In this document: in pieces, positions 35,131 through 56,771 of the stretch
Layout of the letters: the number at the start of each line of letters is the position of its first letter
Position numbering within the stretch: the stretch's first letter is position 1
Assembly (NCBI RefSeq): GCF_900149705.1
Contig: NZ_LT703001.1
Coordinates: 1-64,000 of the forward strand
Length of the DNA stretch: 64,000 nucleotides
Direction: 5' to 3'
From: Sphingorhabdus sp. Alg231-15
GTDB lineage: Bacteria > Pseudomonadota > Alphaproteobacteria > Sphingomonadales > Sphingomonadaceae
The notes under the pieces: model-generated
Database searches by the model: none
The model's input: only the letters and a program-made list of their open reading frames with translations
What the model was told of the DNA's origin: nothing
Program-made: the position numbers and the translations under genes

Positions 35131-36479
<1,349 letters not shown>

Positions 36480-55299: not shown

Positions 55300-55701
55300 T
55301 CAATCCAGGCTTGGCTTGCCGCGCATCTTTTTGACATTAGATTTCTTCTTCTTTGAATCCACTCGCCGCGCTTTGGCGGCTCGGCTCGGCTTGGTCTTGA
55401 TCCGGCGGGCGTCGCGCTGATGGGCCTCGACTAGCATGTCCTCGATCCGTTTGCGCGCTTCTGCACGATTGGCTTCACGGGTGCGATGTTCCCGAACCGT
55501 TATGATTAGTTCCCCATTGCTGGTCATTTTGCGCCCGGCCAGCGAGCGGAGTTTACGAAACGCAAAAGGAGGCAGACGCAGCGCATAAATGTTAACGCGC
55601 ATCTGAACGGCCGTCTCGACTTTGTTAACATTCTGACCGCCGGGACCAGAGGCCGCCAGAAATGTCTCGCTGATCGCGCTAACGGGAATGTTGAAGGTCA
55701 T
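55300..55701 (-). CDS. arfB: Alternative ribosome-rescue factor ArfB
   Basis: This 133-residue peptidyl-tRNA hydrolase of the class I release-factor fold (YaeJ/ICT1) has the catalytic GGQ at residues 21-23 (ASGPGGQNVNK) and the basic C-terminal tail (RRVDSKKKKSNVKKMRGKP) that enters the empty mRNA channel of stalled ribosomes. Length and tail fit the family. It is divergent from ctrA over 362 bases. Confidence 0.94.
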   Translation of the reverse strand: MTFNIPVSAISETFLAASGPGGQNVNKVETAVQMRVNIYALRLPPFAFRKLRSLAGRKMTSNGELIITVREHRTREANRAEARKRIEDMLVEAHQRDARRIKTKPSRAAKARRVDSKKKKSNVKKMRGKPSLD

Positions 55702-55881: not shown

Positions 55882-55947
55882 GAGTCTTGAAACGACTCAT
55901 TTCTGCGGCTTACAGAGTCAGAGGCCTCCCGCGACTCGTGCTGAATC
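55882..55947. promoter_or_regulatory. Cluster of five GANTC sites upstream of ctrA
   Basis: GANTC pentamers lie at 55882-55886, 55894-55898, 55915-55919, 55933-55937 and 55943-55947: five in 66 bases. In Caulobacter, CcrM methylation of the ctrA P1 promoter delays its firing until the fork passes; the density here suggests similar control. Confidence 0.85.
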
Positions 55948-55952
55948 CTAGA

Positions 55953-55968
55953 TTAATCTAAAATTAAC
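55953..55968. promoter_or_regulatory. CtrA box (autoregulation site)
   Basis: TTAA (55953-55956), seven bases, TTAAC (55964-55968) is an exact match to the CtrA consensus TTAA-N7-TTAAC. It lies about 95 bases upstream of the ctrA ATG and directly after the GANTC cluster. Confidence 0.8.
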
Positions 55969-56063
55969 CTTTTACGTTCATCTGTCTTATGGTTAATAAA
56001 TGATCGAGGGGCTTCGGGAGTGTACTCGATGCTAATGCGTAAACTAAGAAAAGGGGCTGCCCA

Positions 56064-56771
56064 ATGCGTGTGCTGCTGATTGAAGATGAGCCAACAACTG
56101 CAAAGGCTATTGAGCTGATGCTGACGACCGAAGGCTTTAATGTATACACAACGGATCTGGGTGAAGAAGGCCTCGATCTGGGTAAGCTATATGATTATGA
56201 CATTATATGTCTCGATCTGAACCTGCCCGACATGCATGGTTATGATGTCCTCAAAAAACTGCGTGTCGCCAAGGTGCAGACACCGGTTCTCATTCTTTCC
56301 GGTATCAGCGAAATGGACAGCAAAGTGCGTTCATTTGGATTTGGTGCCGATGATTATGTGACCAAGCCTTTCCACCGGGAAGAGCTGGTTGCTCGTATTC
56401 ACGCTGTTGTGCGCCGTTCGAAGGGCCATTCGCAGTCGGTCATTCGTACCGGCAAGCTTGCGGTGAACCTGGATGCCAAGACTGTTGAAGTCGATGGTAA
56501 CCGCGTGCATCTGACCGGCAAGGAATATGCGATGCTTGAGCTGCTTTCACTGCGCAAAGGCACGACGCTCACCAAGGAAATGTTCCTCAACCATCTTTAT
56601 GGTGGCATGGATGAGCCCGAACTCAAGATTATCGACGTGTTTATTTGTAAGTTGCGTAAGAAACTGGCTCTTGCTTGCGGTGGCGAGAACTACATCGAAA
56701 CCGTATGGGGCCGTGGCTATGTTCTTCGTGATATGGAAGAAGAAGCCGGACATGAGGTACAGGTCGCTTAA
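56064..56771 (+). CDS. ctrA: Cell-cycle response regulator CtrA
   Basis: This 235-residue OmpR-type master regulator has receiver domain acceptor Asp51 ([16 protein letters not shown]), [22 protein letters not shown] and the DNA-binding winged helix with near-invariant CtrA blocks [39 protein letters not shown] and FICKLRKKL. Its C-terminus is Val-Ala, where Caulobacter CtrA ends in the Ala-Ala degron used by ClpXP. It controls division, motility and methylation genes. The promoter carries GANTC and CtrA sites. Confidence 0.97.

Follow-up and report, generated by a model that had tools for sequence, protein, structure and literature searches.

A conserved array of GANTC sites upstream of ctrA, and a second upstream of ccrM, in Sphingorhabdus sp. 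Alg231-15 and its relatives

Replication-coupled control of ctrA is textbook knowledge in Caulobacter, where one GANTC in promoter P1 is involved, and a ctrA leader with five closely packed GANTC raises the question of whether such a cluster is an accident of sequence, how far it is kept among relatives, and whether the passage of the replication fork could be read from it. We followed this question in the window, by which we mean the whole stretch of DNA analysed (bases 1-64000 of the main contig of the 3.62-Mb genome of Sphingorhabdus sp. Alg231-15), and in related genomes.

Layout of the ctrA leader and the odds of its array

The gene at 56064-56771 on the plus strand is assigned to ctrA by the NCBIfam equivalog NF045991 (422 bits, cut-off 350) and is the best of 24 matches in its own genome, the runner-up having 41% identity. 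A divergent RF-1-domain gene (arfB-like; 55300-55701, minus strand) bounds the 362-bp intergenic region before it, and here, as the sequence-only reading had described, five GANTC occupy the 66 bases from 55882 to 55947. These sites, given without strand, are site A (GAGTC, 55882-55886), site B (GACTC, 55894-55898, whose context CGACTCA is YGAKTCK on the opposite strand), site C (GAGTC, 55915-55919), site D (GACTC within CGACTCG, 55933-55937) and site E (GAATC, 55943-55947). They begin at -71, -59, -38, exactly -20 and -10 from a putative CtrA box, TTAATCTAAAATTAAC, recognised by its TTAA-N7-TTAA motif at 55953-55968 on the plus strand. The exact TTAA-N7-TTAAC claimed to follow the array is thus in place, and the gap that separates it from site E is five bases (55948-55952) rather than the six first given. 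TTAATCTAAAATTAAC is the sole TTAA-N7-TTAA within the window, but as shuffled windows are expected to hold 0.41 and 32 of 100 shuffles held at least one, the box is by itself unremarkable. No RNA element of an Rfam family scored above threshold in the 64-kb window, and no tRNA was found there.

Two further features of the leader bear on where its promoters might lie. The core that is conserved across the order, TTAACCTTT..TTCA..TGGTTAAT (55964-55997, plus strand), likely holds a CtrA-dependent promoter. It contains the inverted half-sites TTAACC and GGTTAA, which are 21 bp apart and scarcely vary among 108 ctrA leaders; the GGTTAA possibly acts as another CtrA half-site lying over the promoter. 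Further upstream, TTGAAA (55887-55892) and TTACAG (55910-55915) form a candidate GcrA-type promoter (55887-55915, plus strand) in which the 17-bp spacer encloses site B and TTACAG touches site C. The element is similar to the TTGAC-GANTC arrangement before ccrM described below, though its -35-like letters TTGAAA are variable within the genus. As a separate observation, the block GACTC-ATTTCTGCGG-TTACA-GAGTC (55894-55919) recurs in inverted orientation, complete or partial, in front of ctrA in related genera (L004, L006, L010).

GANTC is depleted in the 64-kb window, which has 120 sites (1.9 per kb) where shuffled sequence would be expected to give 281. When 120 sites were placed uniformly, five fell within 66 bp in 4 of 5000 placements; the same density was reached in 1 of 20000 simulated 362-bp leaders of equal dinucleotide make-up, and in 3 of 200 first-order Markov sequences of 64 kb, which hold a mean of 284 sites each. 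For seven rearranged control motifs the densest 66 bp held no more than 2 copies within the leader and 2-4 over the window as a whole. In a genome sample made up of the window and 60 stretches of 20 kb (1,264,000 bases, 35% of the genome, with 2312 GANTC), four GANTC in 66 bp occur in the ctrA leader alone, and at least four in 80 bp only in the leaders of ctrA and ccrM, which lie 20 kb apart; five in 170 bp are found in these two leaders and in two coding stretches. Four other intergenic regions of this sample have 5-7 GANTC, spread over 448-4440 bp, and the neighbours of two of them are by eye an integrase and an ABC transporter (L223) and an acetyltransferase-like gene (L218). The earlier claim that the cluster lies beyond chance is thus borne out alike by the simulations, the control motifs and the genome sample, and on these grounds, as far as sequence can show, a chance origin of the array was rejected.

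Conservation of the ctrA array in the genus and across the order

We found ctrA in each of the 32 genomes of the genus that we covered and compared the 31 uncut leaders, that of G015 ending at a contig end and being counted for site E only. In the 31 leaders the GANTC offsets from the box are fixed at -72/-71, -60/-59, -39/-38, -20 and -10, with site A intact in 29, and sites B, C and D in all 31; site E is intact in 23 of 32, as GAATC, GAGTC or GACTC. The middle base of site C is G in 26 leaders and C in 5, and by reading the rows we find that 21 of the 31 carry all five sites. The mean minor-letter fraction is 0.027 in the 20 GA_TC columns and 0.070 at the five middle bases, against 0.227 in the other 55 columns between -80 and the CtrA box, and shifting the comb of sites by 1-8 bp makes the fit worse at each shift, with a one-base shift doubling the variation. 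This is the pattern that selection on the methylation motif would leave, with the caveat that conservation also extends beyond the GA_TC columns in parts of the block, for example at ACTCATTTCTGCGG. Some species have additional GANTC at -79 and -30, and the leaders of the genus hold 3 to 7 GANTC in 300 bp.

For the wider comparison a titled set was made up of the best 80 of at least 584 confirmed ctrA stretches, and since only these were kept it leans to close relatives. Together with an order-wide set of 40 genomes it gave 108 leaders anchored on the CtrA box, 107 of them distinct (G097 repeats L010). L007 has only 86 bp upstream and could not be anchored, and L014 offers only 228 bp; nine ctrA leaders from other families were left out of the anchored set, as were G120 and G130, and G061 (ctrA at the contig start) and G164 (no ctrA match) were dropped and G161 and G140 added. 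Within the 108 leaders the 3' half of the box, TTAACCTTT, is nearly invariant and ranks with the best-kept positions of the order's ctrA leaders, and TTCA and TGGTTAAT after the box are conserved as well; TTTA or TTAG frequently replaces the 5' half, both outside the genus and in some of its members.

Five GANTC of the ctrA promoter region are conserved in the genus, and one of these reaches further: 41 of the 107 distinct leaders have a GANTC at exactly -20 from the box. The next commonest offsets are -12 (10 leaders) and -11 (7), and every other offset has at most 5. The -20 site reads CGACTCG in every leader that bears it and fits YGAKTCK in 42 of 42 leaders having it, against 41 of 130 for other GANTC. 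As its middle base and flanks are invariant, site D may be more than a methylation site. The control motif TCNGA, which alone among the seven controls has a sharp peak, likewise peaks at +25 in 37 of the 108 leaders, inside the conserved TTCA; an offset peak therefore marks a conserved element and does not by itself show a methylation role.

The whole array is much less widespread. Of 78 titled ctrA leaders, 6 hold at least four GANTC in 80 bp. One of them (L001) is of the same leader type as the window's genus, and the other five belong to two Sphingobium, a Sphingorhabdus MAG, Allopontixanthobacter and Sphingomonas kyeonggiensis. In these five the -20 site is retained and most remaining sites lie at other places, which suggests that arrays probably arose on more than one occasion around one old site. 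No GANTC is found within 300 bp in 14 of the 78 titled Sphingomonadales leaders (L015, L016, L027, L036, L040, L041, L042, L051, L057, L058, L060, L065, L076 and L080), the mean in the 40-genome order-wide set is 1.20 per 300 bp (control motifs 0.65-1.43), and the nine leaders from the order's other families have a mean of 0.2 per 300 bp. Conservation of the array in orthologous leaders, which the sequence-only reading had proposed to count, therefore holds within the genus and was rejected for the order, and as the array is missing from most of the order it is not needed for ctrA control in general.

Published counts bear on the same point. In the passage concerned, Tomasch 2021 (PMC8116508) counts as many as five GANTC in the 300 bp before ctrA in Sphingomonadales and six in Caulobacterales, with at least one in every such promoter. 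A five-site ctrA promoter as such is on that account not new; the universal presence of a site fails in the present larger sample, given the 14 leaders above. That passage gives counts only, and the positions and their conservation come from the present analysis, which adds to the published counts a conserved and fixed geometry, purifying selection and a link to ccrM.

A second array upstream of ccrM

The window holds a second array, absent from the sequence-only reading, in front of ccrM (35331-36479, plus strand; N6_N4_Mtase and RAMA domains). Its five GANTC start at 35131, 35160, 35180, 35199 and 35288 (35131-35292, no strand assigned), and with them lie a CtrA-like box TTAA-N6-TTAAC at 35250-35264 and, at 35269-35292, a -35-like element TTGACC followed by GACTC, the only site behind TTGACC in the window (both on the plus strand). 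The spacing of 29, 20 and 19 is kept in 27 of 28 ccrM leaders of the genus; at the level of the family all four comb positions are found within one base in 10 of 30 genomes, against 0.01 by random placement, and at least three in 24 of 30, against 1.0.

Beyond the family we took 40 of the 144 genomes of the order with a ccrM match, from 39 genera; in this set and the class sample below, upstream stretches were counted from the start of the match, which may fall inside the gene. None of the 40 leaders has fewer than three GANTC in 300 bp, and the mean is 5.95 against 0.40-1.40 for seven rearranged controls; at least three lie within 80 bp in 35 of the 40, where controls reached at most 2, and at least four in 26, where controls gave 0. 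TTGAC with a GANTC no more than 20 bp after it occurs in 39 of 40 leaders (control motifs 1-9 of 40), and TTGAC followed by a GANTC pair 9-13 bp apart in 27 (0 of 40 for each control), and of the 10 genomes outside the family 9 carry the pair. For the wider class 153 genomes were drawn, 40 of which had no ccrM match, and from 110 ccrM-bearing genomes outside Sphingomonadales we chose 20, one per family. Here 19 of 20 leaders have at least one GANTC in 300 bp, with a mean of 4.3 against 0.55-1.05 for controls, and in 360 bp we find three GANTC in 80 bp in 16 of 20, TTGAC with GANTC in 14 (controls 0-3) and the pair behind TTGAC in 11 (controls 0). The ccrM pattern is thus stronger than that of ctrA. 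It has the appearance of an ancient promoter design, with the target of CcrM inside the enzyme's own promoter, and the TTGAC-GANTC array is possibly the larger finding here. Use of TTGAC-N1-4-GANTC throughout the genome was not supported, with 28 instances in the sampled genome against 21 and 24 in two controls. GANTC sites in the Caulobacter ccrM leader were reportedly described in the 1990s, so a ccrM promoter with its own target may as such not be new.

Within the family, adjacent spacings in the ccrM leader peak near a period of 10 (resultant 0.71 at 9.8, n=143). As most of these spacings are common by descent and the resultant falls to 0.31 when each is counted once, helical phasing is only a lead; in other families the value is 0.35 near 10 and is higher at 15. 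Where a third site lies inside a gap of 18-22 bp it is 8-11 bp from the first in all nine family cases, and 12-15 bp in the four cases from other families. At oriC of E. coli, arrays of GATC bound by SeqA are clustered adenine-methylation sites whose state reports the passage of the fork. The likeness lies in the clustering and in spacings near whole helical turns; enzyme and motif differ, and the comparison made here is of spacings only. A broader reading, which we hold tentatively and consider rather less probable than its negation, is that Alphaproteobacteria use helically phased GANTC arrays as platforms for sensing hemimethylation, with an ancestral copy at ccrM (TTGAC with one or two GANTC and, in Sphingomonadaceae, upstream sites in steps of about 10, 20, 29 and 40 bp) and a second at ctrA in some lineages, above all in this genus. 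If true, the genes of CcrM and CtrA would respond to one and the same signal of fork passage, each through many sites at once, in the way that SeqA arrays serve Dam.

Other elements of these leaders deserve mention in their own right. In the window a near-invariant CACACCACTAGGGATTGAGTC, some 15 variable bases and then GACTCCATATCTGGTG occupy 35144-35195, the two conserved parts being imperfect inverted repeats (CACCA..GAGTC and GACTC..TGGTG). Moreover, in the ccrM leaders of several genera (L244, L253, L256, L261, L262) CCCTGTGGATAA stands directly 3' of the GANTC pair; TGTGGATAA reads as a perfect DnaA box, and this suggests a possible DnaA input on ccrM in these genomes.

A candidate methylation-responsive promoter and its rivals

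The regulators that such control would call for are encoded in this genome, CcrM in the window and GcrA at C1:263453-264064. Across the genus we found GcrA in 30 and CcrM in 29 of 32 genomes, the misses being drafts rated 67-97% complete; the stretch upstream of gcrA has no array, with GANTC at -157 and -474 from the start of the match within 500 bp. The earlier proposal of both CcrM control and CtrA autoregulation is in part supported by this comparison, through the presence of ccrM and gcrA, the GA_TC columns held in the genus and the conserved CtrA half-site, all of which are consistent with it. We consider it fairly probable that the ctrA array belongs to a promoter of the GcrA/CcrM type, one that responds to methylation as it changes with replication and that CtrA switches.

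In outline, the 86-bp stretch of array and box would be the methylation-responsive half of the ctrA promoter. Its GANTC would be targets of CcrM, hemimethylated from the passage of the fork until CcrM is made, and GcrA, preferring methylated GANTC, would recruit RNA polymerase to a promoter that lies inside the array or immediately after it; this would probably work by way of the conserved CGACTCG at -20, a match to the extended motif YGAKTCK. CtrA~P on the box would then block the GcrA-dependent promoter and drive the downstream one, several sites might make the response steeper or less reliant on any single site, and the ccrM array would close the loop, as the promoter of the enzyme holds its own target. 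If an early promoter had the box at its -14, sites D and E would come to lie near -34 and -24, in the range of GcrA; the same box could also serve a later promoter, with TTCA and TGGTTAAT following it.

Several parts of this outline have counterparts in Caulobacter crescentus. Both organisms have CtrA, CcrM and GcrA, and in both GANTC lies upstream of TTAA-N7-TTAA before ctrA (passages of PMC4287350 and PMC3667746). According to the former, the GANTC of P1 sits at -29 and its CtrA half-site at -14, and the full box falls at -39 relative to P2 and -14 relative to P3; the latter, in the part concerned, has GcrA protecting -35 to -10 of fully methylated P1, and less when the plus strand alone is methylated. 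The arrangements differ in that Caulobacter has a single GANTC at P1 and another past the start of P2, with a half-site at P1 and the full box at P2/P3, and here five sites in 66 bp precede a single full box; among the Sphingomonadales leaders compared, the exact -20 spacing occurs only in Sphingomonadaceae. The mipZ promoter, as described in a passage of PMC3667746, is like the array here in that juxtaposed GANTC are bound and activated by GcrA, and unlike it in having two sites and serving a cell-division gene. YGAKTCK is given in a passage of PMC7987155 as an extended motif tied to GcrA activation in Caulobacter, with no similar preference found in Brevundimonas; it is fitted by the ctrA sites at 55894 and 55933, not by the other three, and by none of the five ccrM sites. 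GANTC is named the most abundant m6A motif of a Sphingomonas in a portion of PMC8067484. In the open-licence literature searched, and as far as the accessible parts of it go, we found no account of a tight conserved ctrA array, of CGACTCG at -20 or of a class-wide ccrM array with its TTGAC-GANTC layout.

Some findings count against our reading. Gonzalez 2014 (PMC3973325) cites, in the passage concerned, a Caulobacter strain whose unmethylatable ctrA promoter gave no abnormal phenotype, and a part of PMC8116508 reports that loss of ctrA is harmless to growth in Sphingomonas melonis. With the former result, and with multi-site promoters already reported (PMC8116508), the assertion that five sites make a stronger arrangement than the model system found no support. 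The middle base counts against our reading as well, because neither CcrM methylation, nor plain GANTC, nor YGAKTCK predicts a bias. It is G or C in 9 of the 10 sites of the two window arrays as compared with 31% genome-wide (binomial P 0.0002, for sites picked after being seen), and at ccrM in 83% of sites in the family as compared with 31% (A or T 69%) in other families of the order, where the middle base is free. A family-specific reader preferring GASTC would explain this bias, and for this reason we leave some weight, if a minor one, to the rival that a methylation-blind regulator recognises GAGTC/GACTC (perhaps GACTC-N-TTTCTGCGGG) at ctrA and ccrM and that the overlap with GANTC is incidental. 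Such a regulator would also suit the unvarying CGACTCG of site D, the TTTCTGCGG that adjoins site B in the genus and the TTTCTGCGGG that lies between site D and the box in Sphingopyxis L021. It fits poorly with the ccrM sites of other families, which lack the bias yet are dense in GANTC (5.9 per 300 bp), with the A, G or C in the middle of site E, with Sphingobium ctrA arrays that mix GACTC with GATTC and GAATC, and with TTTCTGCGG.TT occurring at only 4 places in 1.26 Mb. Control through methylation and a GASTC reader could both hold.

A local switch, in which CtrA~P or another protein on the box excludes CcrM nearby and the promoter takes on a heritable state rather than a replication timer, appears unlikely, somewhat more so than the methylation-blind regulator. 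Ardissone 2016 (PMC5172544), in the section concerned, built a promoter whose GANTC overlapped CtrA boxes and were only partly methylated, and sites D and E do begin close to the box; here no GANTC overlaps the box, and the one closest to it, site E, is also the least well kept of the five. Chance or mutational clustering without function we regard as very improbable indeed: GANTC is somewhat denser outside mechanical ORFs than inside (2.5 vs 1.75 per kb) and the first-order model does give the cluster in a few runs, but the remaining simulations, the control motifs and the genome sample speak against it, as do GA_TC columns that are held across 31 genomes where the flanks diverge.

Taken together, the preserved ctrA array and the similar array before ccrM suggest that the copying of DNA can probably time both genes. 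What the comparison offers is a lineage whose ctrA promoter, under selection, has gained and retained five sites at fixed spacing, together with a ccrM promoter with an array of its own target that recurs across the order and in most of the 20 other alphaproteobacterial families sampled. It makes testable whether a cell-cycle switch owes its sharpness and timing to how many methylation sites it has and how they are phased, and whether CcrM senses its own product, and the leaders of the genus, with their differing numbers of GANTC, are natural variants for such a comparison.
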